Shown piece by piece: positions 820 through 41,483 of a stretch of DNA of 41,483 nucleotides (positions are counted from its first letter, which is position 1; each line of letters starts with the position of its first letter). A model generated the notes under the pieces. The model made no database searches. It was given only the letters and a program-made list of their open reading frames with translations, and had not been told where the DNA came from. This DNA is from a virus. The stretch is taken from positions 1 to 41,483 of the IMG/VR virus record IMGVR_UViG_3300022602_000193. One strand, given 5' to 3'. The position numbers and the translations under genes were made by a program.

Positions 820-2394
820 TTAGTTTAACATATATCCCATGGCCGCTGCAATCTCTTTGTGTGCAAATCGAAGATCTTGATTTCTGCGCTTATCGATTTC
901 TGCAACCGTCTGCACAAACTTTGATTTAGTAACTGGTTGTCCTTTTTCTACCATTGCAACCACAACATCAATTTGACTTTGGTGCTGACCAAAGTTGTAA
1001 TTTGTAAGCTTTTGTAGTACTAGATCTTTGGCTGACTCAGTCATGTTGGTAATGCAATAATGCTGTGGAGTCCACACAAGATTGATCCACCACGAATCAA
1101 AATCTTGTGAGTTGTACCATTCGCACAGTTCTGGCAAATACAATACATTCATAATGCTTACCACAGTACTGACCTGTGTTTTAAAATTGAACCTGCGTTC
1201 TTGATTAAATCGATGAATATTTTTTACAACTTGATTCCAGTTGGCACCGTTGCGCTGGTACTCAAACCTATCGCCAATGTCGTCAATACTAATGTCCAAA
1301 TGAACCAACTTAAATTTTTCCCACAGTTCAAATATTGACTCAGGACATTGTGTACCATTGGTATTGTAACGCAGAGTTATGTTTTTTGCACAATCTAAAT
1401 CTATTGCCTTTTTCAACACATCGAACTGTCGCGGCAACATCAAGGGCTCGCCTCCAGCAAACTGGCAATAATTTAAATTTGGAAGAAGTCGTTCAAGCTC
1501 AGTCCAAAACACCGGCTGAGTATTTGGCCAGTCACCGTTGCGTAAAGAAATATATGCTGGATGAGTTTTCTTTTCACTGGATGGTATGTTGGCCAAATTT
1601 TCTACTGCCCAGGACGAACTCAAAGTTGGACTACAGGTTCTACAACTTAAATTACATAAATTTCCCAATTTAAGATCAACTGAAGTGATATTTTTTATAT
1701 CTTCAGATTCATAGTCAATGTTGTACAACTCATCTTTCAACGCCCAATTGTACAACATCCTGTCGCTCTTTTTACCTGAATCTTCTTCTCGCCAACACTT
1801 ACTACACCCAGCGGGTCGATGTCCATCACGAAACTCTTGTCTCAGCGTTTTCATTGTTGGAGAAAAATAAATGCTCTCAATAGAAAATGATCCTTTGTTG
1901 TTCATGTTGAATTCTTGATCATGCTTGTTGGTCAACGGACCACTGTACACGCAACAAGGTCTCACTGTGCCACTTGGTTTGAACTCAAGTTGCTTCCACG
2001 GATACATGCACATTGTTTCTGGTGGATTCAACAACGGACGATGATTTTCTTGAATGATCTGCTGGTCTGGAATATCAATGTTGACTATTTCAAACTTGGT
2101 TGGGTCTGTACTGTATTTGCTGTGAACCGCATTAACTAGCGACTCGGCATCAGGGTCAGTGGTGCACAGCAATACAAAACAATTTGTGATATCTAGGTGT
2201 TGTACCACACGCTGAAGATGTGCTATCAAATCATAAGGAATCGCACCCTGAAACGCAACCACAATTCGTTCGTTGGGTGCGTACGAAGGTTTATATAGTT
2301 GCTTAAAGGTTTTGTATAAACTTGAACTGGGAAGAAATAAAAACTTTTTAAGGTATATTATTTCTTCAAAGTCATACTGATCAATATTGCTCAT
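820..2394 (-). CDS. Twitch/SPASM-type radical SAM protein
   Basis: This is a 524-residue protein. The radical SAM cluster motif CxxxCxxC (CNLSCRTC) is at C247, C251 and C254, followed by GGEP at 314-317, which contacts SAM in this family. An extra Cys-rich block precedes it: CMYPWKQLEFKPSG near residue 128, then RPCC, and a CSKC pair near 200. This resembles the auxiliary-cluster (SPASM/twitch) region placed N-terminally, as in the twitch-domain radical SAM proteins of marine T4-like phages. The N-terminal 120 residues look like a separate domain of unknown role. Characterised SPASM/twitch enzymes modify ribosomal peptides or sugars; the substrate here is unknown. I chose ATG 2394 rather than the in-frame TTG at 2397. 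The start overlaps the gp55 stop by 14 bases, so the two are probably coupled. Confidence 0.85.
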   Translation of the reverse strand: MSNIDQYDFEEIIYLKKFLFLPSSSLYKTFKQLYKPSYAPNERIVVAFQGAIPYDLIAHLQRVVQHLDITNCFVLLCTTDPDAESLVNAVHSKYSTDPTKFEIVNIDIPDQQIIQENHRPLLNPPETMCMYPWKQLEFKPSGTVRPCCVYSGPLTNKHDQEFNMNNKGSFSIESIYFSPTMKTLRQEFRDGHRPAGCSKCWREEDSGKKSDRMLYNWALKDELYNIDYESEDIKNITSVDLKLGNLCNLSCRTCSPTLSSSWAVENLANIPSSEKKTHPAYISLRNGDWPNTQPVFWTELERLLPNLNYCQFAGGEPLMLPRQFDVLKKAIDLDCAKNITLRYNTNGTQCPESIFELWEKFKLVHLDISIDDIGDRFEYQRNGANWNQVVKNIHRFNQERRFNFKTQVSTVVSIMNVLYLPELCEWYNSQDFDSWWINLVWTPQHYCITNMTESAKDLVLQKLTNYNFGQHQSQIDVVVAMVEKGQPVTKSKFVQTVAEIDKRRNQDLRFAHKEIAAAMGYMLN

Positions 2395-3280
2395 CAAGAC
2401 TAGATGTAACTGGTCCGGATAAATGTGCAGTGCCCTTGCCTGAATTTTGCCGGGTCCAAGACGGGTTAAGCCCGTTCATTTCCAAAATATCATCACGGAT
2501 ATTTTGATTTTTCTTTTCCAAGTTTAGAATACGAGTAAAGCTGTTGGTGATGGCAGCAGTATAGTATGCAAATGGATTCTGTGATTTTGATTCATCGAAC
2601 TGTAGACCAATTTGACTCAACTGCAACAATGCCTGTCCACGCATTTCTTCGTTGTAGGTATAGCCACGCCAGTTTGATCTTGTGGCATAACGCTCACACA
2701 GTTTCATAAACATCATTGCAAGTTTACGAGTCATTTCTCCGTGATCTCTACTGAACTCGCCGTTTTCTAAATCGCCTTTCCAGTGGCTTTTGCCCACAAG
2801 ATAAGGAACTTTGTTTTCGTCTATGCGATAGTGATAGAATGGAGGAAAGTTCAATCTAACATGTTTGGGATCCAGCACAGGTACTTCTACCAACTCTGCC
2901 AACGGATCTTCGTCTTCAACATCTAATTCAAAAATATCTTGTAACTTTTGTTTTTTGGCTTCAGCTTTGGTTATTTTCTTTGGCGCCATTGGGATATGTT
3001 CCCAACAGGTAATACGAAATACTAAGTCTGTATTAGGAATCTTTTTAGGATCTACAATAACACCTTCACGCTTGAAGCGATCTGCTCTGTTGCGTCTGGC
3101 TTCTGCAATGGTTTTTTGATTGATCTTGTTTACTGCGGGTAAAATAATATCATATTGATGATCAATCTTGGGATCACGAAAGCTACAGTATGTATTTTTG
3201 CTTAAATGTATTTCTTTAAGGATATCTCTATTGTTGAGATAGTTGGTTTTTGCTGGGGTTCTAGCAATAGTTTCTGCCAC
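2381..3280 (-). CDS. gp55: Late-transcription RNA polymerase sigma factor, T4 gp55-like
   Basis: This is a 299-residue protein from a GTG start. The C-terminal third matches the T4 gp55 core: KLCERYATRSNWRGYTYNEE, GLQFDESKSQNPFAYYTAAI and FTRILNLEKK align with T4 SKRFNFSGYT, NFDETKYKNPHAYIT and FVQRIKKERK. A short N-terminal piece, NYLNNRDILKEI, matches T4 NYVNNKELLQAI. About 150 residues lie between the two blocks here, where T4 has only a few tens, and they include a Lys-rich and an acidic stretch. gp55 binds host RNA polymerase core and recognises TATAAATA late promoters. I chose GTG 3280 because AGGAG lies 8 bases upstream and because the upstream ATG at 3343 falls ahead of the -35 box of the promoter at 3306-3333. 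T4 gp55 is 185 residues. Confidence 0.9.
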   Translation of the reverse strand: MAETIARTPAKTNYLNNRDILKEIHLSKNTYCSFRDPKIDHQYDIILPAVNKINQKTIAEARRNRADRFKREGVIVDPKKIPNTDLVFRITCWEHIPMAPKKITKAEAKKQKLQDIFELDVEDEDPLAELVEVPVLDPKHVRLNFPPFYHYRIDENKVPYLVGKSHWKGDLENGEFSRDHGEMTRKLAMMFMKLCERYATRSNWRGYTYNEEMRGQALLQLSQIGLQFDESKSQNPFAYYTAAITNSFTRILNLEKKNQNIRDDILEMNGLNPSWTRQNSGKGTAHLSGPVTSSLDEQY

Positions 3281-19700: not shown

Positions 19701-22700
19701 TATGATGGTAGTCCTGTGCAACTTGATGTTGCAGTAAGCACCAACACAACTGTTCCTGCAATACAAGTATTCATCAATGCCACATTCCAAGAGTCGTACA
19801 ATTATAGAGTATCAATTTCTTCAAACACTACCACAATCACCTGGCTAACTGCTTACAATCCTGGCGACTTGATTGAAATTGATGTGTTAAGTGATCAAAC
19901 CAGTGCAATTGGTTTTTATCAAGTTCCTATCAATTTGGAAAACAATCCATTGAATGGAAACAGCACACAATTTACACTGGGAACAATTAGAAATCACTAC
20001 AGTACAATTGCACAAAACCTAATAGGGTTAAGTGGCCCTGTGATTGGCGCAAACAACACTCGAGACCTAGGTAATATTATTCCCTACGGCTTACAAATAC
20101 TGCAACAAAGTTCACCATTGACTTTGGCTGGATATTTCATGCGAGATGCCAACTACGACATCTTTGCATCACTGGATTTCAACAGCAGAGAATATATTAA
20201 ATTTAAATCTCAACTGTTGGACACTGTGGTCAACAATGACTACACAGGACTAACTATTCCGGAAATTCTTGATTCAGCAATTTCACAAATCAATCTAGGA
20301 AGAACCAGCTTAAATCCCTTCTACTGGAGTGACATGTTGCCCACTGGCACAGTGTTTACTTCAACTGTGACCACAGTGACACAGATCACAACGGCTGTGT
20401 TTAACACTTTGCAAACATACACATATACATCTGCTAACTATCTAGGTTTGTTGGTTTACTTAAATGGTGTTTTGTTGACCAGAGGTTATGATTATGTGGT
20501 ATCAACTGACAGTCCACGCTTGACAATTTCTGTGCCATTGAAAACTGGTGATGTTGTTACTATCAATGAATATTCAACTACAACAGGAAATTTTGTTCCC
20601 AACACTCCGACCAAACTTGGATTGTACCCTAAATTCAAACCAGAAATCTTCTTGGATGTTGATTACATAAATCCTACTCCTGTAATCCAAGGTCACGACG
20701 GAAGTATCACTGTGGCGTTTGGCGATTTTAGAGATCAAATATTACTTGAATTTGAAACTAGAATCTACAACAATCTAAAAACAGATGACAATCCTGTGCC
20801 ATTAACTGCTGATGATGTGATACCTGGATTCTTCCGCACAACAGATTATAGTCAGGCGGACATCACTGATATATTAGGCGAAAGCTTCTTGAGCTGGGCA
20901 GGCTACAACAAATTAGATTACAAGACACAAAATTATTTTGCTGCTAATCCTTTTACCTACAACTACAGCAGTGCTGGTAACAAACTTAACAATCAACCAT
21001 TGCTGGGTGCATGGCGTGGCATATATCGTTACTTCTACGATACAATTTCTCCTAACTTGACTCCTTGGGAAATGTTGGGATTCAGCGAAATGCCAGTATG
21101 GTGGGAAAACCGTTACGGCCCTGCTCCATACACCAATGGTAACTTGGTGTTGTGGGGAGATTTGGAACTGGGTCTAGTGGCAGATCCTGTGGCTCCTTAT
21201 ATACTGCCTAACTATGCAAGACCTGGGTTGACAGAAGTAATTCCAGTTGATTCAGAAGGAAATTTGTTGTCACCATTGGACAGCGTGGTTGGTGCATACG
21301 ATCCCACTGCTTGGCGTAAGAGTTGGGTTGTAGGCGACGGCGGCCCAGTAGAAGCAGCTTGGTGGTCAAGCTCTAGCTATCCATATGCAGTGATGAGATT
21401 ATTGGCAGTGACTCGTCCTGCAGAATTCTTCTCGTTGTTTGCTGACAGAGACTTGTACAAGTATAGCACTGAGTTTGATCAATACTTGTACAACGGTCGT
21501 TACAGAATCAATGCAGGTCAACTTGCTCCATTGTACGGCAGTGGAACAAGCAAGGCCAGTTATATTGATTGGATTATTGATTATAATCAACAATTAGGTA
21601 TTAATTCTTCTGACGCATTGACCACTGACTTGGCCAATATTGATGTGCGTTTGTGCTACAGAATGGCTGCGTTTACAGACAAACAGTATGCCAGCATATA
21701 CCTAGAAAAATCCAGCCCCGAAAGTCAGAATTCTAGTTTGTTATTGCCTCCAGAAAGTTGGAACCTACTGGTATACAAAAATCAACCATTCGATGAAATT
21801 ATCTACAGTTCAATTATCATTGAACAAATGGAAACTGGATTCAGTGTCTATGGGTATAGCAACACACAACCTTATTTCCCAATTCTTGCAAGTTCAACCA
21901 GTGGACTCACACAGACCATCAACGCTGGCGGTGTCACAGTACAGGTTCCTGCACAGTACACAAACAATGTTGTGCAAATTCCGTATGGATACAACTTTTC
22001 TAACATCACTATTGTAGTTGACTTTATTTTGAGTTATGGAGCATTGCTAACGGCACAAGGATTGTCCTTTGACAATGTTGAAAATGGTTATGTATTAAAT
22101 TGGCAACAAATGGCCCAGGAGTTTTTATACTGGGCAAATCAAGGCTGGGCTCCTGGTGCAATTATCAACATCAACCCATCGGCTACCAAACTGTCTGCTT
22201 ATCGACCTGGTGCAGTGGTTGATACCATTGTGAGTCTGACTCCAGAAAACATGTTGTTGGATCAGAACAAACAAGCTCTTGCCACACGAAATTTAATTAT
22301 ACTTCGTGATGGTGACAGTTTCTCAATTACATCTGCAACCAATCAAACAATTTCATATTTGGATATGAGATTTACCAACTACGAAAACATGGCAGTACTG
22401 GATAATGTAAGTATTTTCAATGATTTGATTTATGATCCTATCACTGCTGAAAGACAAAATCGTATTGCGTGGTCGGCAGCTATTACTCCAGAATGGAACG
22501 GTACATTAAATGCACAAGGGTTTATCCTTAACCAAAACAATGTCAAAGCCTGGCAACCAAATACCAAGTACACCAAGGGCGAAATTGTCATATACAAAAA
22601 TACCTATTGGAGTGCACTTAACATTGTTCAACCAGCTGCACAGTTCAACTATGCTGACTGGGTAAAGAGCAATTACGATTTGATTCAACAAGGCTTGTTG

Positions 22701-25700
22701 CCAAATATTGCCAACAAAGCTGATCAGCAGGCCAACAGCTACAACATCTATGATGCCAATCTTGAGCCAGACAATGACTTGTTGGCCTACGGATTGATTG
22801 GATGGAGACCTCGTCAATACATGGTTGATCTTAATCTTGACAATGTGAGTCAAATTAACCTGTATCAACAATTCATTGGTGTCAAAGGAACCTTGCTCAG
22901 TACTGATATTTTTACCCGAGCAAACTTCAACAAAGAAACTGGTCAATACACTATCCTTGAAAACTGGGGTGTGTTGGTTGGAACCTACGGTGCCAACGCA
23001 AATCGCAGTTACATTGAATTACGATTAAATGAAGCATTGTTGACTGGAAACCCTAGCACAGTACAAGTTATACAACCTGGACAAGCCAGCGAAGCAGATC
23101 AAACTATTATTTTACAGGATTTGTGGAGTGAGAGTTATAAAATACCCACAACAAACATATTCCCTACTACTTACACCACTAACTTGGATGTTTCATTGCC
23201 TAGTGCAGGTTATGTAAATCTCAATGATGCAGACCTTACTGTGTTCAATTTGAATGATCCATCAAGCATTGAAGCCAATTTAACCACAGTTGGCAATGGT
23301 ACAACTATTTGGGTCGCTCAAGTAAACAGCTACAACTGGGACATTTATAGATGTGTTCAAGTTCCAGGTCGCATGATTAGATTAAACGACAATCTAAATC
23401 AAACTAGCGTTGCTACATTTAGTAGTGCTCATGGATTGTCAGTTGGAGATCTCATGGTTGTGAGATATTTCAGCAACAATGTTGACGGTGTGTTCCGTAT
23501 CTTAGCAGTACCGTCTACAATCAGTGTGGTCATTGCATATGCATTTACCAACACAAATCAAACACAAATTGTCAGCAATGGTATAGCATTTTATCTACAG
23601 TCAATGAGAGTTGCACAAGCAAGTGACATTGTTAATTTGCCGGCAGCGCATCAACTTCTTCCTGGCGTCAAAGTCTGGGTTGACAACAATGGATCCGGAC
23701 TATGGGAAGTTGTTGAAAAAGAAGACCCATTTGTTGAAAAGATATTATTAGAACCGTTCCTTCCTGTGACAAATTCATTGTTTGGAACCAGTATTAGTCA
23801 AAGCTCTGATCATTACAGTGTTATTGTTGGTGCACCTGGTGCCAGCAGTGGTGCAGGTGCATTGTACACATATCGCCGTGAACAAACTCAGATCTATGTT
23901 GACAACATCCTGTTATATTTGACTGCAGCTGGCACAGTTGGCTACGGTAACAGTGTGTCTTTTGGCAATCAAAATTGGGCAGTGGCTGGTGCCAGTGCAA
24001 GTAATTCCAACGCTGGATATGTAACGCCATTGTATCAAATTCCAGGAACCAACGACTATGTTCAAACACAGTTGTTGGTTGCTCCAGATCAGAATTTTGG
24101 CACAATTAATTTTGGTGCATCAGTTGTAATGAGTCAAGATGAACACTGGATGTATATTGGTGCTCCTGGCGCTAATTGTGTTTATGCCTACGGTATTGTG
24201 GAAGTTCCTGGACAGACTATATCCTACCTGACTGATGGTGTAACAACCAGCTACAACTGGTCTAGTGCTATTCAAATTAATCCAGCACATCCAGGACAAC
24301 TTATTGTTTTGTTGAGCAATAAAACATTGACCTTTGGTATTGACTACTATATCAACTCAAATGTTGTGCAATTCTATACACCACCAGTTGCTGCACAACC
24401 ATTGATCATTACAAGACGCATTTCTGCCACACTGGATCAAAACATTTATTATAATGTTACACAAAATTCCACATCTGGTACTGGCACAGGTGCAACATTC
24501 ACAGTGACAAATACTCGTGGCACTTACTACCCAACACTGAGCTTTGGTGGCCATGGGTACGCATACAACAACACATTGACCATAAGCTATACACAAGTAT
24601 CACCTACTGGGTCATCTGCTAACAACTTGACAATAACAGTTACTACAGTTGATGGTACTGGTGCTATTACTGGGTTTACCTATTCTGGATCTGGGGTTTC
24701 AAACACCAGCACATTTACACTAAATCCATATTTGGCCACACTGTCTGACATTTATTCGTTTACTGTGACTGTGAACGGTGTGTTACAAAGACCTTACATT
24801 GATTACACCTACAACAGTGGCACATCTGTAATAACTTTTATTACTAATCCCAGTGCAGGTGCAACAATCAGTGCCACAACTGGAACATACTGGGATTATA
24901 TCAATAAAATCAATGTATCTGGCCTAGATAGTGCTGCATTGTTTGGTGGAACTGTTACTACATCTACAGATGGAACACAGATTTTAATTGGCGCGTCTAA
25001 CGACAGTGGTGTCGATTCAGCTGGAGATACAATATCTCATGCTGGTGCGGTATATGCATTTGATCGCACATCAGTTAATATTCAGATTACCAATGCAAAT
25101 CAAAACACATATTCAATTCCAGGATCATCTACTGCACCTGTTGCAGTGTTGTTGAACGGTGTGTATCTAACAAACACTGTGTATTATATCAACGGTCAGT
25201 ACACAATCAGCGGATCTAGCGTTGTATTGTCATCTAATGTTGTATTGACAGTGGGTGATATTCTAACAATTCAAACTAACCAATTTAAATTTGTGCAAAA
25301 AATGAATGCCAATGTTGTGATTGATGAATCAGCATTTGGCAAAGCAGTACAAATGTGTGCAAATAACTGTAGCTTGTACATTGGTGCTCCGTTTGACAGT
25401 ACAGCTGCACCACAAGGTGGTGTGGTTGAGCGTTTTGTAAATCAAAGTAGGATCTACGGAGTTACAACCAGTACCATTGCCAACCCAACATTGACTGCAG
25501 GCAACACCATAAGAATCAACGGTTATCAAGTTGCAGTTCCCAGCGGATCCAAACAAAACATTCTTGGACTTATCTCTGCAATTAATTCTGCACAAATACC
25601 CAATGTTGTAGCAACCGCAGTGTCAGATGTTACATTGGCCGGTGACGGTAAAACTACTGCATTTTATATTGGATCTGTTTATTCAGCCGCTAGTTCTTAT

Positions 25701-28700
25701 ACCACAGTGGTCTATGTCAACGGAACCTTGTTGACTTATGGATCTGACTATAGTTACAACAACACAACTCAACAATTATTCTTCTCGGCAGCTCCTGCGG
25801 CAAACAGTGTGATAACAGTACAAGCTGGAAGAATGACTTTGAGCGTGATGAACGCTGATGCAGCATTGCCTTATAATAAAATAAATGTGCTGCCTGGAGT
25901 AAGTGGTACTGCATTTGCAGACATTGGATTTGATACTTTTGTATGGGTACAAGACATATTTGCTCCAAACCCAACACAGTACGCACAATTTGGTTCAAGT
26001 ATCAGTATCAACTCAAATGCAATAAATTTAGTAGTTGGTGCACCAAACGGCAATGTTTATGAAGCAACTACATTTGATGCTGACACAACATATTTTGATG
26101 AGCATAGCACTTCGTTCTTCAATGAAATATTTAATTCTGGTGTAGCATATTCATATGACTACTTGCCTAGTGCTACTACATCATTGGCCAACCCAGGAGC
26201 GTTTGTATTTGGACAACAAATATACGAAGGCGTTCTTGCCACTGGCGACCTTTATGGTACCGCTGTAAATTATCGTAACGGTCGATTACTAGTTGGCGCA
26301 CCTGGCAGTGACCAAGGAGCCACAAGTGGAAACTTTGGATTGGTTTCTGTACTAGACAATCCCACAGGAGCACCGGCTTGGACAGTATTGTACCAGCAAC
26401 AACCTGTGGTTGATGTGTCACAGATTGACACAGTTTACAGCTACAACAAATTACTAAACAGTACACAAACATATTATGACTTCATTGATCCGCTGCAAGG
26501 AAAAATACTTGGAGCTGCCAGAAGAAATATTGACTTCATTGGTGCAGTTGATCCAGCAAATTATAATCAAGGGTCTGTTCACAATGTTGGTAACAGCTGG
26601 GGGTCAGAACATGTTGGACAAATTTGGTGGGATACAAACACAGTAAGATTCATCGATGCCAACCAAGATGATTTGGTTTACGCAAGTCGTCGTTGGGCAC
26701 AAATATTCCCAGGCAGTAGAGTTGATATCTACCAGTGGATAGAAAGCACAGTGCCACCATCACAATACACTGGGCCTGGCACACCGTTGAGCACAATAAG
26801 TTACACAATAAAATCAGTGTTGACCAACAACGGAGTATTCTCAACTGTGTACTATTACTGGGTAAGAGGTATTTCAACAATCAATACTGCAGCCGGCAAG
26901 ACATTGAGTTCTACGGGTATTGCTGGTTATATTACAAATCCATACAGTAGCGGAATACCATTTATTGCTGGTATCAATGCTAACACTGTGGCCTTGTATA
27001 ATTCTTCTGGATTGATATCTGCAACTGACACAATCTTACATATTGGATATGTTCGTCAAGCGTCAGATGCAAACATTCACACCGAATATGAATTTATTGC
27101 TGATGGCCGCCCTAGTGATTTCTTGAATGACAATTTATATCGCAAGCTCCAAGACAGTTTGTGCGGTGTTGATACTGCTGGTAATCTAGTTCCTGATCCT
27201 GGACTCAGCCCAGGCGAACAATACGGTGTACAGTATAGACCCCGTCAAAGCATGTTTGTTGATCGTTTCATGGCATTGCAAAACTATTTGACTCGTGCCA
27301 ATAGCATATTGTTGCAATACCCAATATCTGAAACACGAAACTTTAGCATGCTAAACAGTGCAGAAGCTCTGCCTACTAACTCAGTGGCCACAGGAACACA
27401 GTGTTCAATATCCGGAAACACATTGACAATAGCTGGCGAAATCACTGGAAGATTCAGTGTCGGCATGTTGGTTCTTGGCAATAATCTTGTCAGTGTTGCA
27501 CCTGGTACAATTATCACCGGACTTGGCACAGGCACAGGCGGTGCAGGAACATACACAGTTAATATATCTCAAACAGTGGTTGCCACAAACATTATTTGTG
27601 TGTATGGATGGAATCAGGAAGTACCAACACTACAAGTTTTGGATTATCAAAATCTCAACCAAGTGCCTGTAGGATACATTTATCTAGTAGATTCTGATTC
27701 CAGTCAGAATGGCCTATGGACAGTGTATCAAGTGGATTTAGCTGCCACAGGCAACAGAATACTTTCATTGATCCGTATTCAAAACTACGATACTAAACTC
27801 TATTGGGACTATGTCAACTGGTACATGCCTGGATACAATAGTTCTATTCAACCCATTGCCACTGTGCCTAACTATGCTGGCTTGTCCACTTTGAGTTTGA
27901 CTGCTGCTCCTGTTGGCAGTAGTGTCAAAGTTTCTGCCAACGGTCAAGGTAAGTTTGAAATTTATCTTAGAAATGCCACAGGATGGGAGCGTGTGGGACT
28001 AGAAGACGGTACTATACAGTTTGATGAATCTTTGTGGAACTACAATGTTGGACGATTTGGATTTGATAACGAAGTGTTTGATGCACAGTATTTTGATCAA
28101 GATCCAACTACAGAAACAAGAAAAATTATTCAAGCAATCAATGAACAATTATTCATTGACGAATTGTTGATTGAAAAAAATCAATTGTTGATCCTGATGT
28201 TCAACTACATCTACAGTGAATTTACTGCACCAAATTGGTTGATGAAAACCAGTTTTGTCAGTGTAGACCACACAATTCGTGCACTGTTGCCGTATCAATT
28301 CTACATACAAGACAATCAGACTTTTGTTGAAGATTACCTACAAGAAGTCAAACCTTATCATACACAGATACTTGAGTTTAACTTGATCTATGATGGCCTG
28401 GACACTTATCCTGGCAGCATGACTGACTTTGATTTGCCAGCATACTACGACAATAGCTTGACTTTCCCACAGTTTGTGAGTCCAATACTTACACCTTACA
28501 CTGCCAGCGGAAGCAAGGTTGAAAGTTTTGTCAGCGATGCTGAACCCAACGCTGAAATTTGGGCACAGGATCCATGGAGCCAATGGTACAACAATTACCT
28601 GTTAGAAATAATGAGTGTGAATGTGATCAATGGCGGGTATGGATACACTGTACCACCAGTGGTCACTGTCACAGGTAACTGTATCACTCCAGCCACAATG

Positions 28701-33743: not shown

Positions 33744-34748
33744 ATGACATATTCAACAGGCGGAACAGTACAAGCAACAGACTATAACGGATTTGTTAGC
33801 ACTACATCTGGCGCTAATATAAATGCTACCTGGGGTACTGCTAGTAGCAGTGGCGGGTATGGCCAGGGCAATATTGCCACAGTTAATGTGGCCGATATAG
33901 TAACTGCCACACAATGGGCTACTTTAAATTCTAGAATTAGTTCAATGGCCAGTCACCAAGGAACATCAATTACTGCTCGTACAAGTCCGGTTGCTGGTAA
34001 TGTTATTAGTGTATTGGCAGCAGTTAACACTGACATCACAAACTGTTATACAAACAGAGCCAATGCAGCAAGTTCTGGTGCACAAGTTTCTAACTGGACT
34101 GGTACAACTGCCAAAACAGGTAGTACAGGATCTGGCGGTAGTGCATGGACTATTACATTTACTCATACCATGACTTTTGCAAACAGTGCTGCGTTCTTTA
34201 GCTTTTTTAATGCTGGCGGATATACTCAAATTCAATTTGGCAAAACATCCACTGGTACAGTGGCCGATCAAGAATGGAACTCATTTATTGGTAACGGAAC
34301 CAGCAACGGTGTTGTAAGTAGATTAACACAAACTGGCACTGCAGGGTCAAAGACTATTGCATCTACTAACTACACAGGTTTCACTAAATTTAGCGGATCT
34401 GGATCCCCAACAACATATGCAACCACAATTGGTGCATTTGCATTAACCACAAGCCCACAGACTATATACAAACAGTTTGACTCAGGTTCTGCATATTCAA
34501 GTAACTATGTTCAAGTTAATGCTCAAGTTGACAACAACTCAGCACCAACAGTGATTACCTATACAACAACTTGGTATGATGCTGGCGACGGTACTACGGG
34601 TTCTACCGCTCAAATCACAGGCGGTACACAAGGAACAGGTACAACATTTGGTACTGCACCAACTACATTGTTAACTTACTACCCACCAGAAACAACATAT
34701 CTGAGCAATGTATGGGGCACACCCACTGTTGCTGCCACAGTGGCATAA
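33744..34748 (+). CDS. Virion structural/fibre protein, Thr/Ser/Gly-rich
   Basis: This is a 334-residue protein with GGAAA about 9 bases before the ATG, 15 bases after the fibre gene. The first 90 residues (VQATDYNGFVSTTSGA, GGYGQGN, ITARTSP-type spacing, ATQWATLNSRISSM) match the opening of structural proteins common in marine T4-like phages. The remainder is a beta-rich, low-charge sequence (NSAAFFSFFNAGGYTQIQFG, QVDNNSAPTVITYTTTWYD) suited to a fibre or decoration domain. It contains no Cys apart from one near residue 98. It is the last gene before the terminator. The name and exact virion position are unknown. Confidence 0.65.
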   Translation: MTYSTGGTVQATDYNGFVSTTSGANINATWGTASSSGGYGQGNIATVNVADIVTATQWATLNSRISSMASHQGTSITARTSPVAGNVISVLAAVNTDITNCYTNRANAASSGAQVSNWTGTTAKTGSTGSGGSAWTITFTHTMTFANSAAFFSFFNAGGYTQIQFGKTSTGTVADQEWNSFIGNGTSNGVVSRLTQTGTAGSKTIASTNYTGFTKFSGSGSPTTYATTIGAFALTTSPQTIYKQFDSGSAYSSNYVQVNAQVDNNSAPTVITYTTTWYDAGDGTTGSTAQITGGTQGTGTTFGTAPTTLLTYYPPETTYLSNVWGTPTVAATVA

Positions 34749-34771: not shown

Positions 34772-34791
34772 AAAGGGCCCAAGGGCCCTTT
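34772..34791 (+). terminator. Hairpin terminator at the end of the fibre genes
   Basis: AAAGGGCCC, two bases, then GGGCCCTTT form a perfect 9-bp inverted repeat. The T-tract after it is short and broken (TTTACCTTT). Its symmetry would let it act in either direction. It separates the late structural genes from the accessory operon. Confidence 0.75.
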
Positions 34792-34817
34792 ACCTTTAGT
34801 CAAATTTAGTGTATACT
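34789..34817 (+). promoter_or_regulatory. Sigma70-type promoter of the right-arm accessory operon
   Basis: TTTACC (34789-34794, four of six matches) is followed by 17 bases and TATACT (34812-34817, five of six). The -35 box uses the last three bases of the terminator stem. The first codon begins only six bases after the -10 box, so the transcript would start at or next to the ATG. Confidence 0.55.
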
Positions 34818-34823
34818 TGTTAC

Positions 34824-35132
34824 ATGAATACTGACGAATTAATTGTACATAGTCGAAGCCGTTTTGACCATGCGGTTGCAAAACGAGTTCTCAAAGAAAA
34901 ATATCAAGCCAAAATGACTTTTGCTCATGCAGGAGGACTTTGGCGTGCCGGCCCGGAATTGCAATCAATGATTTTTACTTGTGGCAAAATCGGCGAAGCA
35001 GTGCTATTAGATCTTTACGAAACTCCTGTAAAAGTCAACACCACAGAGCTCATGGCATTAAGTCAGCAACGCTGGCAAGAACAAATGAATGCTTGGTTGA
35101 TAGAACACGAAGAGCTAACCAAACAAAGATGA
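34824..35132 (+). CDS. Small conserved phage protein of unknown function
   Basis: This is a 102-residue protein from ATG 34824; an in-frame GTG at 34809 overlaps the promoter and was rejected. There is no Shine-Dalgarno, and the -10 box is six bases away, so translation may be leaderless. Visible features are a basic segment (RFDHAVAKRVLKEKYQAKMT), FAHAGGLWRAGPEL, and VLLDLYETPVKVN followed by a Gln/Glu-rich helix (QQRWQEQMNAWLIEHEEL). It has no transmembrane segment or metal motif. Its stop overlaps the next start as ATGA. I recall similar small proteins beside glycosyltransferase genes in T4-like phages but know no function. Confidence 0.7.
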   Translation: MNTDELIVHSRSRFDHAVAKRVLKEKYQAKMTFAHAGGLWRAGPELQSMIFTCGKIGEAVLLDLYETPVKVNTTELMALSQQRWQEQMNAWLIEHEELTKQR

Positions 35133-35929
35133 CTACCGGTGTACTAATATTTGCCTACAACAATGAGCACATTGATTATCTTGCTATGGCCAATTGGTCT
35201 GCACAAAACATTCGCAGACATTTAAATTTGCCAGTGTGTGTGGTAACTGATCAAGTTGTTCCGGACAGCTATAAATTTGAACAAGTGGTTTATGCAACAT
35301 CTGGTAATCAAAATTCTCGTTGGTTTGCTGACATAGATGCCACAGTAACTTGGTACAACGGCAACAGATCAAACGCATTTGAACTAAGCCCTTGGGATCA
35401 AACTCTTGTACTTGATGCAGACTATGTGGTAGCAAGCGATCAATTAACCCAGCTATTGACCATTGATCAAGACTTTATGTGTCACGGTCATGCATATGAT
35501 GTTAGTGGTCAAATGTCGTTTGACGAAAATAACTTTTTTGGAAAGCATCGCATGCCCATGAATTGGGCCACAGTGATGTTGTTTCGTAGAACCAAGCCCA
35601 CAGAATTGATTTTTGAAACCATGCAAATGGTAAGAGATAACTGGGATCATTACAGAAATTTGTATGGTATTTTAAAATCTACATATCGCAATGATTTTGC
35701 ATTAAGTATAGCAATGAACACAGTTGATGGGCACACACTCAGTACTCCGACTATACCTTGGTCGTTGGCATCAGTGCTGCCAGATCACAAATTAACACAG
35801 TTAGACCCGGACCGATATCGTGTTGACTTTGTCACACAAGATAAAAAACCTCGTTGGATTACAGTAACATCGGACTTTCATGCTATAGGCAAAAAACATC
35901 TAGGAGATATAATTGCCAGTTCTTGCTGA
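35129..35929 (+). CDS. GT-A-type glycosyltransferase-like protein, copy 1
   Basis: This is a 266-residue protein; the start ATG 35129 overlaps the preceding stop. It opens with a Rossmann-like strand and helix (GVLIFAYNNEHIDYLAMANW) and a nucleotide-site style VCVVTD. The metal/nucleotide-sugar motif is LVLDADYV with D96 and D98 (DxD). The second half carries MPMNWATVMLFRRTKPTELI and a long helix. The overall plan matches nucleotide-diphospho-sugar transferases. It aligns along its length to the next protein and is a clear paralogue. The sugar donor and acceptor cannot be told from sequence. Confidence 0.65.
   Translation: MTTGVLIFAYNNEHIDYLAMANWSAQNIRRHLNLPVCVVTDQVVPDSYKFEQVVYATSGNQNSRWFADIDATVTWYNGNRSNAFELSPWDQTLVLDADYVVASDQLTQLLTIDQDFMCHGHAYDVSGQMSFDENNFFGKHRMPMNWATVMLFRRTKPTELIFETMQMVRDNWDHYRNLYGILKSTYRNDFALSIAMNTVDGHTLSTPTIPWSLASVLPDHKLTQLDPDRYRVDFVTQDKKPRWITVTSDFHAIGKKHLGDIIASSC
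35902..35906 (+). promoter_or_regulatory. Ribosome binding site supporting a TTG start
   Basis: AGGAG lies 6 bases before TTG 35913, inside the end of the preceding gene. No ATG or GTG is better placed, and the protein family resemblance begins soon after the TTG, so a TTG start is preferred. Confidence 0.7.
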
Positions 35930-36656
35930 AAGAGGCTATTTAATTCCAGCATTTAATACCAGCGAAGTTGACTATGTAGCATGTGCCAAGCAACTTGCTG
36001 ATAGCATACGACAATGGCATCCTGATGCCAACATAACTGTACTAACCAAAGAAATGTTGCCCTATGGTGATCTAGGCGGCTATGCCAATGACTGGCAAGT
36101 GTTTCATGCTAGCCCGTACAGACAAACTATCAAATTAGAAGCAGACATGTTGGCAGCTAGTCCCATTGACCACTGGTGGACCTTGTTTGAACTTCGCGAT
36201 GTTGTAGTCAGTCAAGGTGCTAGAGATTTTTACGATCAGACCACTGAGTCAAGATACTATAGAAAAATATTTGATAACAACAATTTACCAGATGTTTACA
36301 ATGCTATAACCTACTGGCGTGTGAGCCAAACTGCCAAAGAATTTTTTGGTCTTGTAAGAAATATTTTTGAAAATTGGCCAGACTACAGAAAACTATTAAA
36401 AATGCCCGATGAGCAAGCCAGCACAGATGTTGTATATGCCATGGCCGCAGTAATCATGGGACTGGATCGTGTTACTTTGCCTACAGGATTAGGTCCTAGT
36501 ATCGTGCATATGAAAAAGCACATCGTACCTATTGCCACTGACAACTGGACCAATGAACTGGTTTGGGAACATACCAATCCTGGGCTTAGAGTAAATACCA
36601 TAGCCCAGTGGGGGTTGTTTCACTATCACATCAAAGATTGGATTCACAATGAGTAA
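35913..36656 (+). CDS. GT-A-type glycosyltransferase-like protein, copy 2
   Basis: This is a 247-residue protein from a TTG start with AGGAG 6 bases upstream; it overlaps copy 1 by 17 bases. It aligns with copy 1: LIPAFNTSEVDYVACAKQL against LIFAYNNEHIDYLAMANW, SPYRQTIKLEADMLAAS against SPWDQTLVLDADYVVAS, and LPDVYNAITYWR against MPMNWATVMLFR. The DxD position reads E76-A-D78 here, a change that can still bind metal but may alter the donor. Its C-terminal half differs (WEHTNPGLRVNTIAQWGLFH). This is probably an ancient tandem duplication with functional divergence. Confidence 0.65.
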   Translation: MPVLAERGYLIPAFNTSEVDYVACAKQLADSIRQWHPDANITVLTKEMLPYGDLGGYANDWQVFHASPYRQTIKLEADMLAASPIDHWWTLFELRDVVVSQGARDFYDQTTESRYYRKIFDNNNLPDVYNAITYWRVSQTAKEFFGLVRNIFENWPDYRKLLKMPDEQASTDVVYAMAAVIMGLDRVTLPTGLGPSIVHMKKHIVPIATDNWTNELVWEHTNPGLRVNTIAQWGLFHYHIKDWIHNE

Positions 36657-36948
36657 AGAAGAAGACAAATTCAAACATTCCAAGCGTTTACAAAAAGATG
36701 ACAATGCTATTGCCAAACAAGTAAAAATTGCCAAATCTAACAGTCATTTTGATCAACAGAATATCAAAGAACCACATCGTTTGGTCAAGCATCATGCCAT
36801 GGATTGCGGTAATCCAGAATGTTACATGTGCGGTAATCCTCGCAAAACACACAAAGACAAACTGACACAACAAGAAAAAAGACTGTTTCAAGATGTAGAC
36901 AAAACAACAGACCGACACAGCAATGGGTTAGCACCAAAAGATGAATGA
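36649..36948 (+). CDS. Small Cys-rich, highly basic conserved protein
   Basis: This is a 99-residue protein overlapping copy 2 by 8 bases. The centre reads EPHRLVKHHAMDCGNPECYM and CGNPRK, giving C-x4-C-x2-C with nearby His residues; a zinc site is likely. The flanks are Lys/Gln-rich and predicted helical (KQVKIAKSNSHFD, LTQQEKRLFQDV). I recall the CGNP-x-C-x2-C-x-NPRK signature in small uncharacterised proteins of phages and bacteria. The function is unknown; RNA or protein binding is only a guess from the charge. Confidence 0.65.
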   Translation: MSKEEDKFKHSKRLQKDDNAIAKQVKIAKSNSHFDQQNIKEPHRLVKHHAMDCGNPECYMCGNPRKTHKDKLTQQEKRLFQDVDKTTDRHSNGLAPKDE

Positions 36949-37285
36949 CACCACAGAAAACTTTTGGGCTGCCTGGGCAATACCGTCGGAGGCTCCAAAA
37001 CCGATATTTTATAGAGTATACTATGATGATCACGGAGACTTCCTATTTTACAGCATGGAAGATGTTCCAGGTAATTACTTAGAGATAGATCAAGCTACCT
37101 ATGCACAGTCATCGCCGAGAATAAGAGTTGTAGACGGAAAGCTCTATCATATAAAAACAAATGTCGCAACAAAACTGGTTCCTAGCAACCAAGGACAAGC
37201 ATGTGATCCTAGAGATGTTACTGTGGTAACCACAGGTCAACACAAACAATATTGGGAATTGAAAGCCACTGATGAATCAAATTGA
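36941..37285 (+). CDS. Small conserved phage protein of unknown function
   Basis: This is a 114-residue protein overlapping both neighbours (8 and 14 bases). Features are IFYRVYYDDHGDFLFYSMED, VPGNYLEIDQATYAQ, RVVDGKLYHI and a conserved-looking ACDPRDVTVV. The YRVYYD...FYS...PGNYLEID pattern suggests a small beta-rich domain. There is no signal peptide or membrane segment. Its place between glycosyltransferase genes, with overlapping frames, implies co-expression. No function is recognised. Confidence 0.65.
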   Translation: MNDTTENFWAAWAIPSEAPKPIFYRVYYDDHGDFLFYSMEDVPGNYLEIDQATYAQSSPRIRVVDGKLYHIKTNVATKLVPSNQGQACDPRDVTVVTTGQHKQYWELKATDESN

Positions 37286-38195
37286 TATTGCAGATTTAGA
37301 CTGCATTTACTTAACATATGACGAACCACAAAAAGAAGAATTTTGGATCCGTATTAAAAACATGGTACCATGGGCCAAGCGTGTGGACGGTGTTAAAGGA
37401 TCGGATGCCGCCCACAAAGCAGCGGCCCATGCTAGTGATACTGATCGCTTTGTGCTTATTGACGGAGATAATCTGCCTGACGCTGATTTCTTCAACCTCC
37501 AATTACATTTGGATTCTACTAATGATAATTGCGTTTTCCGTTGGCGGGCTCGCAATAGCATTAATGGCCTAATGTATGGCAATGGCGGATTGAGTTGTTG
37601 GACCAAAGAATTTATCAACAACATGAAGACACACGAAAACTCAGATGGCACTGAAGAAAACGATGTAGAATTTTGTTTTTATTCCAACTATCTAGCCATG
37701 CATGATTGTTATAGCGTAACACATCCCAATGGCAGTGCTTATCATGCTTGGCGTGCTGGATTTCGTGAAGGTGTTAAGATGTGCTTGGATCGAGGACGCA
37801 GACCCAGTGTAAATGAATTCAAAGATCGTGTACACAGTAGAAATTTAGATCATCTAACAATTTGGCACAATGTAGGTCGAGATGCTGAACATGGTATATG
37901 GGCAATCGCTGGTGCCAGGATGGGCACATACATGACCATGCTCACCGCCTGGGACTACAAGTCGGTGCAAGACTTTGATGCGCTGAAAGAATTATGGACC
38001 ACAGTGGAAGAGTCAAATCCAGAAATACTTGCTGGGCGTGTTGCTGAGGATTTGGTAACGCAATTAGACTTGCCTATCAACAGATTGGACGAGCAAGAAA
38101 GCAAATTCTTCAAACATCACTACAAGTCCAACTGGCACAACCGTGGTATTATGACAACTGAAATTGATGTGATACGAGCACAAGAAGGATGGTAA
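37272..38195 (+). CDS. Glycosyltransferase-like protein (GT-A, DGD motif)
   Basis: This is a 307-residue protein starting inside the preceding gene (14-base overlap). Residues 10-60 read CIYLTYDEPQKEEFWIRIKN, VPWAKRVDGVKGSDAAHKAA. The DxD-type motif RFVLIDGDNLPDADFF has D64 and D66. It continues FRWRARNSINGLMYGNGGLS and a late WHNVGRDAEHGIWAIAGARM. This architecture recurs in T4-like phages next to fibre genes, as I recall. It is not an obvious copy of the two preceding transferases. The acceptor is unknown. Confidence 0.65.
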   Translation: MNQIDIADLDCIYLTYDEPQKEEFWIRIKNMVPWAKRVDGVKGSDAAHKAAAHASDTDRFVLIDGDNLPDADFFNLQLHLDSTNDNCVFRWRARNSINGLMYGNGGLSCWTKEFINNMKTHENSDGTEENDVEFCFYSNYLAMHDCYSVTHPNGSAYHAWRAGFREGVKMCLDRGRRPSVNEFKDRVHSRNLDHLTIWHNVGRDAEHGIWAIAGARMGTYMTMLTAWDYKSVQDFDALKELWTTVEESNPEILAGRVAEDLVTQLDLPINRLDEQESKFFKHHYKSNWHNRGIMTTEIDVIRAQEGW

Positions 38196-38196
38196 A

Positions 38197-38907
38197 ATGA
38201 TTGGATTAATTGGCAGTACTGGATTAATTGGTCAAGTATTGTCTCAGCACATCCAATTTGATAAGACATTTAATTCTGCTAACATAGAATCAATTGTTGA
38301 CTATCAATTTGATATTGTGTATTGTGCTGCACCATCAGGCAACAGACTACTGGCCAATCAAAATCCACAACAAGATTCTGCCAGTATTCAAAAATTAATA
38401 AACATCTTGGCACATGCCCGTATACAAAAATTTGTATTGATCAGCACAGTTGATGCAGTACATGCCAGTGATACCACCTACGGCAGCAATAGAAAATTGC
38501 TTGAAGATTTTGTCAAGCAACAATTTGCAGATCATCACATTGTTAGATTATGCGGTTTGATTTCAAAGCATATCAAGAAAAACACCCTGTATGATCTCAA
38601 ACATTCTCAGTACATCTCAGATATTAAATTAGATTTAAAATGTCATTGGTACCCACTGACTAACCTAGTCAAAGATTTATCAACTATTATCAGCAATAAT
38701 ATTCGCGAAGAAAATTTGGTTTCAGAACTTGTTTCGAACAGAGAAATTGTCAATAAATTTTACCCTGACTACATTGATTCTATACTGCCATCAACTGAGT
38801 TTGAATCGTACAACTTGACATGCAACAACACTGATATTTTTGGGCAATATCTACTGACCAAACAAGATATTTTTAACTCAATGCAGGATTACATAAATGA
38901 CAATTGA
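38197..38907 (+). CDS. SDR-type NAD(P)-dependent epimerase/reductase-like protein
   Basis: This is a 236-residue protein with AAGGAT just upstream and a 1-base gap from the previous gene. The Rossmann dinucleotide motif GSTGLIG is at 6-12 and YCAAPSG near 42-48. The catalytic region reads LISTVDAV (S83, T84) and TTYGSNRK with Y95. In extended SDRs the Tyr is followed four residues later by Lys; here that place is R99. The protein is shorter than typical sugar epimerases (about 310-350), and the C-terminal substrate domain is reduced. It may make or modify a nucleotide sugar for the neighbouring transferases, or act only as a binding fold. Confidence 0.65.
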   Translation: MIGLIGSTGLIGQVLSQHIQFDKTFNSANIESIVDYQFDIVYCAAPSGNRLLANQNPQQDSASIQKLINILAHARIQKFVLISTVDAVHASDTTYGSNRKLLEDFVKQQFADHHIVRLCGLISKHIKKNTLYDLKHSQYISDIKLDLKCHWYPLTNLVKDLSTIISNNIREENLVSELVSNREIVNKFYPDYIDSILPSTEFESYNLTCNNTDIFGQYLLTKQDIFNSMQDYINDN

Positions 38908-39880
38908 TGTAGTTACTAGTGATTCTATTATTTGGAACAGCAACACTTTTATTGTAGAATTTATTTCTGCGATGTTAAAGAATGACCGTGTAGAAGTATA
39001 CCTGGCTCCGGAAGGCCCGTGTGCTAAACAACTTGAATTTTACACATTGTTAGACAATATTTGTGCTGAGTTTAAGTTTGATAAAAATAGAATAACCATA
39101 GTAACATGCAATCGTTTGGAAACACACTCTGAATATAAAATTAGATATGTGCATAGAATAGCAACATATTTAGGAACTGCAAAACAATATTCTGCACAAA
39201 TTTCCAACACTGATAAAACTTTCAATGATCAATTTAAATATTTTGGTCATTTTATTGGACATGGAAATCTTCCGAGATTACTACTAGGCAGTTATCTGTA
39301 TAATCATCAGCAAGATAAAACATTGCAAACATATCATTGTGATATTACATCAGATTATCACAAACCGTTTTTGGGAATAAATGACATGATATCCAGTGGC
39401 TGCACCTGGGATCAAATCAATGATGCCATAAACTTAATAAAAAATTCTCCACTCACAATTGACAAAATTGATCAGTACCCAATATTGTCGCCTGCTACAT
39501 TAAACATATCTAAAGTTTATCCAGATTTTTTTGTTGAAATAGTATCGTTAACATACTACACTGGAAATACTTTTTACACTGATGAGAAAATATGGCGCCC
39601 TATAATGATGAAAACACCTTTTATCATACAAGGCCCTCCACACTATATAACCAACTTACACAAACTTGGATTCAAGACATTTGACCATTGGTGGAGTGAA
39701 GGTTATTGTGATGATGAATCACAGTGGCAGTATCGACAAATAGTTGATATCATTGATGTTCTTGCATCCAAATCCGTGACTGAAATAAAGCAAATATATA
39801 CAGAAATGATTCCGGTATTAGAACACAATTTCAACAGAATGTTGGAATTAACCGGCGATGACTTTGATAATCTAATATGA
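38897..39880 (+). CDS. Fucosyltransferase (GT10)-like protein
   Basis: This is a 327-residue protein overlapping the SDR gene by 11 bases. The diagnostic part is the C-terminal half: NTFYTDEKIWRPIMMKTPFI (residues 224-243), then IQGPPHYITNLHKLGFKTFD and a helix ending LEHNFNRMLEL. The FxTEKxxxPIxxxxPFIxxG pattern with LGFKTF is that of GT10-type fucosyltransferases and their phage relatives. The N-terminal half (VEVYLAPEGPCAKQLEF, FGHFIGHGNLPRLLLGSYLY) has no named match. It is AT-richer than the structural genes, with more runs of A. It probably transfers a sugar as the last step of the cassette, but the donor is unproven. Confidence 0.55.
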   Translation: MTIDVVTSDSIIWNSNTFIVEFISAMLKNDRVEVYLAPEGPCAKQLEFYTLLDNICAEFKFDKNRITIVTCNRLETHSEYKIRYVHRIATYLGTAKQYSAQISNTDKTFNDQFKYFGHFIGHGNLPRLLLGSYLYNHQQDKTLQTYHCDITSDYHKPFLGINDMISSGCTWDQINDAINLIKNSPLTIDKIDQYPILSPATLNISKVYPDFFVEIVSLTYYTGNTFYTDEKIWRPIMMKTPFIIQGPPHYITNLHKLGFKTFDHWWSEGYCDDESQWQYRQIVDIIDVLASKSVTEIKQIYTEMIPVLEHNFNRMLELTGDDFDNLI

Positions 39881-40737
39881 AAAAATTAAAAATACCATAC
39901 TGTGAATTTTATATTACCAATGTGTGTAATATGTCTTGCACTGGATGTAATAGATTTAATAATTTTCATTTCACTGGATTTCAAAAATGGGATGATTATA
40001 AAGACATTTATAAACAGTGGAGTCAAGAAATTGAGTTTAATTCAACTGCGATACTTGGCGGAGAACCGTTTTTAAATCCTTCATTCATGTCATGGGCAAA
40101 AGGAATCACAGATTTGTGGCCCAATGCAACTGTGAGAATTATCAGCAACGGCACTAGGTTGCACAAAGTTGCTGGTTTGTATGAGCTATTAGTTGAAAGA
40201 AAAAAACTAAAACTATGCGTGGGAATTCACAATAAAAAACACAAAAAAGAAATTGTTCAACAAATAAAAGACTTTTTGCAAGCACCGTTTACAATTGAGT
40301 TCTCTGACGAAAATCCTTATCAATCATACATGACTATCACTGACACCAATGGCGTTGAAGTTAAAATAGAATATAATTGGTGGTTCCATCAAGGATCAAT
40401 TATCAAAGATGAAAATTCATTGACCTTGCATAACAGTGACCCAGTCAAAGCACATGATATATGCCACATGAAGACTTGCCATCATTTTGTATCAGGCAAA
40501 TTATACAAATGCGGAGTTGTTGCAGTTTTACCAGACTTTGATCAACAAAATAAATTGCAACTATCACAACAAGATCGAGACCTGATGCTCAACTATGCTC
40601 CACTGGAACTAACAGCTGATTATGATACTAAATTAAATTTTGTCAATAATTTGACCAATCCTATCAATCAATGTAAATTTTGTCCAGAAGCTTACAATGG
40701 CCAACAAATATACGCAGAAGAAAAGAAAAACTTATAA
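39877..40737 (+). CDS. Radical SAM protein with SPASM-like C-terminal Cys cluster
   Basis: This is a 286-residue protein; the start overlaps the previous stop as ATGA. The cluster motif CNMSCTGC is at C17, C21 and C24, and GGEPFLNP starts at 61. The C-terminal third holds C196, C201 and C212 (CHMKTCHHFVSGKLYKC) and C266-x2-C269 (CKFC), enough for at least one auxiliary Fe-S cluster. A short radical SAM core plus this Cys pattern is typical of twitch/SPASM enzymes acting on peptides or sugars. It is not a close copy of the radical SAM protein at 820-2394. Its neighbours, a transferase and an SGNH-like protein, point to a glycan or glycopeptide substrate. Confidence 0.8.
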   Translation: MKKLKIPYCEFYITNVCNMSCTGCNRFNNFHFTGFQKWDDYKDIYKQWSQEIEFNSTAILGGEPFLNPSFMSWAKGITDLWPNATVRIISNGTRLHKVAGLYELLVERKKLKLCVGIHNKKHKKEIVQQIKDFLQAPFTIEFSDENPYQSYMTITDTNGVEVKIEYNWWFHQGSIIKDENSLTLHNSDPVKAHDICHMKTCHHFVSGKLYKCGVVAVLPDFDQQNKLQLSQQDRDLMLNYAPLELTADYDTKLNFVNNLTNPINQCKFCPEAYNGQQIYAEEKKNL

Positions 40738-41447
40738 TGTACAAATACATTTTTGCTGGTGATAGCTGGGCACTCAAAGGATTTACCACAGATAACTATG
40801 CATTTGGTAACGATGATCCCTTGCCTGGTGATGTTAGATTGGCAGATCACTGGGGTATAGAATATATGTTATGTTTGCGTCCCGGGCTTGGTAATCTGGC
40901 AATATTAAAAAAGTTATTAACAATGGAAGTTCCATCTGATGTTCCTATTGTTTGGGTATACACTGAACCAGGACGAGATTACGGAAACATAACCAACAGT
41001 TCACCATATAACTGGATCACCAGTGAAAACATTTTTGAAATAAGACAAGAACTTGATGCACACATACTTGCTACAATTCGACAACAAGTTCCTAACCCTA
41101 TAGCACTAATCGGTGGGCTGTCTGACATCAACACAGAGTTAGCTGAGAGTTTGGGATTTACTGTGTTACATCCCAGTTGGCAACAGTGGACTGCTGACAA
41201 ACTAGGATCACAGTGGTTCAAACAAGGGTGGGGAGCCAGTGACATAGGTTGGCGTATGCACAGCAATAATGTTATTCCTAGTAAGGCTGCAACATTTGCC
41301 TGGGACGAACAAATCAAAGAATGGTGTTGGTGGGAAGAACAAGGATACTTTTGTCACGAACATCCTAGTCCACGATCTAATTTGGAATTTGCAGAATTTC
41401 TAAAACCCAAAGTAATAGAATGGTTAAGTCAATATGAACAAAGGTGA
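40737..41447 (+). CDS. SGNH/GDSL-like hydrolase
   Basis: This is a 236-residue protein from ATG 40737, sharing TAATG with the radical SAM gene; the in-frame upstream start at 40680 lies inside that gene and was rejected. FAGDSWA at 6-12 places the nucleophile Ser at S10 (GDS block I). Later blocks are PGLGN (block II Gly), IGGLSDIN in place of GxND, and EHPSPRSNLEFA as the catalytic His block. The usual Asp three residues before that His is replaced by Cys (CHEH). It may be an esterase or acyl-transfer enzyme on sugars, or an inactive relative. There is no signal peptide, so it would act in the cytoplasm. Confidence 0.6.
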   Translation: MYKYIFAGDSWALKGFTTDNYAFGNDDPLPGDVRLADHWGIEYMLCLRPGLGNLAILKKLLTMEVPSDVPIVWVYTEPGRDYGNITNSSPYNWITSENIFEIRQELDAHILATIRQQVPNPIALIGGLSDINTELAESLGFTVLHPSWQQWTADKLGSQWFKQGWGASDIGWRMHSNNVIPSKAATFAWDEQIKEWCWWEEQGYFCHEHPSPRSNLEFAEFLKPKVIEWLSQYEQR

Positions 41448-41483
41448 TGAAACAGTCAACAATAAAAGTAAGTTTCTAAACTC
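41434..41483 (+). CDS. Start of a further gene of the accessory operon (cut by right edge)
   Basis: ATG 41434 opens a frame that stays open to the window end (16 codons, beginning MNKGDETVNNKSKF) and overlaps the preceding stop by 14 bases, like its neighbours. The competing ATG at 41447 closes after ten codons. Too little is present to name it. Confidence 0.45.
   Translation, partial: MNKGDETVNNKSKFLN

Follow-up and report, generated by a model that had tools for sequence, protein, structure and literature searches.

A putative glycan assembly and tailoring operon with its own promoter behind the fibre genes of uncultured jumbo phages

The viral record IMGVR_UViG_3300022602_000193 (IMG/VR), analysed over its complete length of 41,483 bp (the window) and itself a fragment, ends in a cassette of tightly packed genes. 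The gene order in the window is baseplate wedge, a 4964-aa structural protein, the fibres F1, F2 and F3 and then the cassette, and the baseplate wedge protein shares about 34% identity with its counterparts in RaK2-type and related jumbo phages (121Q, CBB and Phosso). The cassette comprises ten complete open reading frames (ORFs) on the plus strand between 34824 and 41447 (g01 to g10, Table 1), neighbours overlapping by 1 to 17 nt except for a 1-nt gap between g06 and g07, and the start of an eleventh, g11, which runs for 16 codons (MNKGDETVNNKSKFLN) up to the contig end. The N-terminus of g11 matches that of the first array radical S-adenosylmethionine (SAM) gene (MNKGDETVDNKSRFLN) of a 346,856-bp contig (G001, the contig behind locus L017), which carries homologues of g01 to g10 in identical order and, beyond g10, a radical-SAM gene, a g08-like gene, four radical-SAM genes, a gene for a 355-aa protein, a carbamoyltransferase gene and one more radical-SAM gene. 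In related jumbo phages, too, the cassette runs on into four to six twitch radical-SAM genes (family NF033640), the 355-aa protein and a sugar-type carbamoyltransferase. Judged by these comparisons the cassette is truncated by the contig end, and the window holds the 5' part of a longer operon. A first interpretation of the bare DNA (the original prediction) had counted at least eleven overlapping, co-directional genes, which agrees with the ten complete genes and the beginning of an eleventh found here. Neither Rfam nor tRNA scanning gave a match in the window.

Table 1. Features of the cassette and associated elements in the window
Feature	Position	Strand	Description	Loci (of 80)	Support
Hairpin	34772..34791	+	terminator-like, 8-bp stem, 4-nt loop, between F3 and g01		sequence; recurs in relatives
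Promoter	34789..34817	+	sigma70-type, TTTACC-17-TATACT, overlaps 3' arm of hairpin		motif
g01	34824..35132	+	102 aa, conserved protein	72
g02	35129..35929	+	266 aa, GT8-like glycosyltransferase (putative)	80	weak glycogenin profile match
g03	35913..36656	+	247 aa, g02 paralogue, TTG start	80	aligns with g02; PHROG 1903 E=9e-7
g04	36649..36948	+	99 aa, small CGNPxCYMCGNPRK protein, rare accessory	6	PHROG 4499 E=6e-9
g05	36941..37285	+	114 aa, conserved protein	52
g06	37272..38195	+	307 aa, putative GT-A-fold glycosyltransferase, DGDN motif, core gene		structural matches
g07	38197..38907	+	236 aa, atypical SDR-like, variable slot	3	NAD_binding_10 E=0.002, under cut-off
g08	38897..39880	+	327 aa, transferase-like, conserved C-terminal TEK/LGFKTFD block	42 (related ORFs)	alignment
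g09	39877..40737	+	286 aa, radical SAM, variable slot	5	PF04055 E=1.7e-7, above cut-off; CxxxCxxC intact
g10	40737..41447	+	236 aa, SGNH-like (GDSW...HEHP), variable slot	3	Foldseek
g11	41434..41483	+	truncated start of first N_Twi radical-SAM gene		translation vs G001 149549-150949; family inferred from N-terminus
F3	33744..34748	+	334 aa, 32% Ser/Thr, fibre protein, candidate glycan acceptor	80
r2	820..2397	-	525 aa, N_Twi radical SAM, second array-family copy		NF033640 E=7.8e-99, 331 bits

A scan with g06 confirmed at least 594 viral stretches, the best 80 of which were fetched as related loci (g06 being present in these by construction). F2 was found in all 80 loci, the radical-SAM array family in 76 and F1 in 68; the figures for the other genes are given in Table 1. 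With few exceptions the loci share the order F3-g01-g02-g03-(g05)-g06-slot-array. Near-duplicates occur among them (59 loci were left after their removal for the co-divergence analysis), and the core order is constant over the approximately 59 loci that are non-redundant, with g06 identities as low as 54%. The length of the slot that separates g06 from the array varies from none to 4.7 kb. Domains encoded in slot and array include AMP-binding, DegT, epimerase, class-III aminotransferase, hexapeptide, GDSL, B12-binding and radical-SAM domains, with amidinotransferase-like genes in four loci and also, as read by eye, sulfotransferase-like genes. The full set g01 to g10 is present in L006/L017 (apparently one phage), in L008 and, with g04 not detected, in L007. 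Since g07, g09 and g10 each occur in only three to five loci, we regard these genes, for a short-chain dehydrogenase/reductase (SDR)-like, a radical-SAM and an SGNH-like protein, respectively, as rare cargo. The original prediction had singled out precisely these together with a GT10-like protein; no search supported GT10, and the other genes are there, but in a variable slot. Of the small proteins that it called conserved, g01 is common, g05 fairly common and g04 rare. The conserved system, as far as can be read from the genes, is a GT8 pair, a GT-A enzyme, a radical-SAM array and a carbamoyltransferase, most of it lying outside the window.

The array enzymes belong to NF033640 (N_Twi_rSAM, curated cut-off 170 bits), with scores of 282 to 403 bits for five array genes of G001, and the CxxxCxxC motif is kept in 293 of 293 N_Twi-like ORFs of at least 350 aa as well as in the five G001 cluster genes. 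We compared support genes genome-wide between seven cassette records of at least 225 kb and ten isolate jumbo phages. A phage IscU was present in 7/7 large cassette records (in one of them split into two pieces) versus 0/10 isolates, and a carbamoyltransferase, encoded by one NodU-type gene near the array end, in 7/7 versus 1/10; the seven cases are not seven independent events, because the records are related. G001 also encodes a ferredoxin, two IscA/ErpA-type proteins, a SAM synthetase and what we read as an MTAN-like nucleosidase, a PNP_UDP_1 protein. The latter two were rejected as general partners and are considered optional, as they were found in 2 of 13 records tested genome-wide (besides G001, together in G021 only). 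In L126 and L129 they lie inside the radical-SAM array, a position that would fit SAM supply and removal of 5'-deoxyadenosine. On the 347-kb contig G001 at least 19 radical-SAM genes and several SGNH-like ORFs were observed. The second array-family gene of the window, r2, is inserted between a phosphoesterase gene (SbcD/gp47-like, by eye and by synteny with 121Q) and a gene for a likely gp55-type late sigma factor.

Within the window, the two tandem transferase-like proteins of the original prediction are g02 and g03, which are paralogous and may be of the GT8 type: a joint profile matched glycogenin weakly, with the DxD motif aligned (E=0.007), and gave no Pfam match. The DGD transferase of the original prediction is g06, for which a GT-A-like fold is suggested by an AlphaFold model (predicted local distance difference test, pLDDT, 81) that has GT-A enzymes as closest solved structures, with E just above 0.001. 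Annotated viral glycosyltransferases rank after the closest phage matches of g06, and in Nocardia and Micromonospora g06-like genes are flanked by genes read by eye as glycosyltransferases. The best-identified enzyme is g09, firmly assigned by its sequence to the radical-SAM proteins, in line with the prediction. It scored 18.5 bits against NF033640, far under the cut-off, which places it in another radical-SAM family; its C-terminal cysteines (C196, C201, C212, C266 and C269), invariant in the alignment, seem to resemble those of SPASM/twitch domains, and a motif scan of bacterial genomes revealed no relatives. The SDR assignment of g07 is tentative, since GxxGxxG is present but YGxNR replaces YxxxK in all homologues listed and the profile match stays below the cut-off. 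Similarly, g10 is marginally SGNH-like: its GDSW, GN and HP blocks are conserved and the best Foldseek match of its model (pLDDT 75) is the SGNH esterase 3mil (E=9e-4), but Pfam gave no match. A GT10 fucosyltransferase identity for g08 was rejected, as no GT10 model or structure matched and no family was found for it in Pfam, NCBIfam, PHROGs or PDB profile searches. None of g01 to g10 contains a transmembrane or hydrophobic segment.

The cassette also carries its own expression signals. The terminator/promoter unit that had been proposed directly after the fibre genes was recovered, and both the hairpin and the sigma70-type promoter recur in relatives. There the hairpin shows compensatory changes at 4 of its 8 stem pairs, in a comparison for which the hairpins had been picked by their pairing, and a sigma70-like site was found in 40 of 66 F3-g01 gaps (0.1 expected). 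The fibre genes are preceded by a late-like motif, [GT]NTAAATA (F1: 42/48, 2.2 expected; F2: 23/60, 3.4 expected). By eye, this motif was also seen in G001 before structural genes, for instance one read as tail sheath, and sigma70-like sites before non-structural genes. As the cassette has a sigma70-type promoter and the fibres have late-type promoters, joint expression appears unlikely, and early expression is the best reading of these motifs. The -10 box lies 6 nt from the g01 ATG in the window, where no Shine-Dalgarno motif is seen, and 5 to 7 nt from it in 36 of 72 loci; a Shine-Dalgarno-like motif precedes g01 in 2/72 loci versus 64/96 for F2. Because of this proximity of the -10 box and the rarity of the Shine-Dalgarno motif, the g01 transcript is predicted to be leaderless and expressed independently of the fibres.

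Taken together, the operon probably encodes a glycan pathway. Our preferred interpretation, to which we give a probability of roughly 0.45, is a soluble, cytosolic pathway for glycan assembly and tailoring, expressed from its own sigma70-type promoter, with a glycan precursor of the host cell envelope as the likeliest target and the adjacent Ser/Thr-rich fibre F3 as the second likeliest. In such a pathway g02, g03 and g06 would transfer sugars and the slot enzymes would add interchangeable decorations (reduction or epimerisation, acylation or deacylation, amidination, amination, adenylation). The four to six twitch radical-SAM enzymes would alter sugars by radicals (dehydrogenation, epimerisation or deoxygenation), the carbamoyltransferase would cap a hydroxyl by O-carbamoylation, and the phage IscU would assist loading of the iron-sulphur enzymes. 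The altered surface of the infected cell could then exclude competing phages. In favour of this interpretation we count the fixed core order and the near-constant array with its intact CxxxCxxC motifs and the carbamoyltransferase adjoining it, the phage IscU of the large records, the sugar-type families in slot and array, the actinobacterial context of g06-like genes, the promoter class and the absence of transmembrane segments. Several points weigh against it. The glycosyltransferase identity of g02, g03, g06 and g08 is based on weak profile or fold matches, the promoter timing was deduced from motifs alone, and the cassette is without a flippase, polymerase or membrane glycosyltransferase like those of classical seroconverting phages. 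Moreover, the invariant linkage to F3, its Ser/Thr richness and its co-divergence with the cassette fit a virion target, although linkage explains the last of these.

A glycan that is built in the cytosol on F3 (or F2), prior to assembly, changing host range or shielding the fibre, is the foremost of the alternatives, possible if less likely. F3 precedes g01 in every locus, its G001 homologue has the highest Ser+Thr content among 278 ORFs, the cassette enzymes are soluble, and F3, in contrast to F2, co-diverges with g01 to g03 (partial Mantel 0.28-0.29, 59 loci). Nevertheless, Ser/Thr richness is common among fibres, and we rejected the idea that the co-divergence proves a fibre target, since it is equal for all three neighbours, and so not discriminating, and may reflect plain linkage. 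The promoter class favours the host surface, and the Ser/Thr content and fixed position of F3 favour the fibre. With a terminator and a separate sigma70-type promoter ahead of the cassette and late-type promoters at the fibres, fibre glycosylation is weakened relative to remodelling of the host surface. Of the proposal that the cassette builds, attaches and acylates a glycan on fibres or host surface, the glycan assembly and tailoring operon is well supported and the fibre target has lost ground.

A related and similarly tentative view takes the array as the centre of a radical-SAM glycan factory that, fed by IscU, edits and carbamoylates a glycan on fibre or host surface; some members add a phage SAM synthetase and a nucleosidase that could clear 5'-deoxyadenosine. 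Alternatively, the twitch enzymes might be maturases of the type acting on ribosomally synthesised and post-translationally modified peptides, with a peptide or virion protein as substrate and glycosylation secondary. Several peptide maturases are among the secondary matches found for the array enzymes, a PDB profile search with g09 matched YydG, and g01, g04 and g05 are small enough to serve as substrates. We consider this unlikely, given the rarity of g04, the lack of a leader/core pattern in the g01 and g05 alignments and the sugar-type neighbouring cargo (carbamoyltransferase, DegT, epimerase, glycosyltransferases). An unlinked pile-up of genes in a hypervariable region, with no single pathway, would agree with the high variability of the slot between g06 and array but is more improbable still in view of the order kept across the non-redundant loci, the tight gene overlaps and the constant presence of carbamoyltransferase and IscU in the large records. 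Hypermodification of phage DNA (e.g. glycosylated or carbamoylated hydroxymethylcytosine), which in some phages employs glycosyltransferases and carbamoyltransferases, is very improbable, as the enzymes that usually hydroxymethylate the base are missing (of 13 cassette records one has the thymidylate synthase/dCMP-hydroxymethylase family, and TET/JBP and C5-cytosine methylase were not found in the 7 largest) and the cassette adjoins the fibres.

The combination had been called not a described system. Our literature search, which covered few subscription journals, found no paper on this operon, but fibre-linked cassettes of glycosyltransferases and radical-SAM genes have been described for pelagimyophages. 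Their host recognition cluster, a variable region by the fibre genes in the T4-like structural module of pelagimyophages and cyanomyophages, contains radical-SAM cassettes and several glycosyltransferases, most often of GT8, and has been proposed to modify the host O-chain (PMC7029224). The operon resembles this cluster in outline, as it also lies in the structural module beside fibres and has glycosyltransferases, but it differs in genes and phage group: it belongs to a RaK2-related jumbo clade and has a fixed core order, a carbamoyltransferase-closed twitch array and its own promoter. The host recognition cluster sits between VrlC and the neck gene gp14 (PMC7029224). Neither of these was identified here, and the cassette of the window follows the baseplate wedge and the 4964-aa protein. 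The latter is encoded at 16737-31631, and relatives have giant proteins of about 3300 to 4900 aa at the equivalent place.

Single-gene searches with the cassette gave only distant matches among isolates. The T4-like environmental virus TARA_ERS488813_N000010 likewise combines many radical-SAM genes (12) with phage Fe-S assembly genes (an A-type carrier), but these were treated as Fe-S metabolism (PMC5332604) and that paper gives no glycan operon, whereas here an ordered array is joined to glycosyltransferases. Synechococcus phage S-SCSM2R (PQ898602) has glycosyltransferases, an aminotransferase, a radical SAM (23% to g09) and an amidinotransferase in one run, and Sinorhizobium phage Phosso (PV764938) has radical-SAM genes right after its giant virion protein, in the same baseplate/fibre position. 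However, neither has an N_Twi array above the curated cut-off; homologues of g02, g03 and g06 and an IscU were not found in S-SCSM2R, nor the cassette genes in Phosso. Seroconversion of the O-antigen by GtrABC-type systems involves a membrane flippase and a membrane glycosyltransferase, unlike g01 to g10 with their lack of hydrophobic segments. In the cultured Vibrio phage K566 (L159, 15971-20373) we observed three near-continuous radical-SAM genes weakly related to the array, a possible experimental model. Vibrio phage K567 likewise has related radical-SAM genes; with K566 and Phosso it is among the nearest models, as the exact operon is not known from any cultured phage. Genes for TctC/Bug-type solute receptors, found in L112 (10923-11801, Pfam) and G001 (36108-37085, by eye), hint at a betaproteobacterial host.

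The findings offer a testable, conserved operon in abundant uncultured jumbo phages, in which a fixed core can be separated from swappable decoration genes, and an entire family of uncharacterised twitch radical-SAM enzymes whose setting is probably one of sugar chemistry. A surface glycan as the product would explain the phage-borne iron-sulphur scaffold and tie competition between phages to radical enzymology. Should the array indeed act as a glycan factory, it would mean that a virus uses radical chemistry to diversify a recognition surface.

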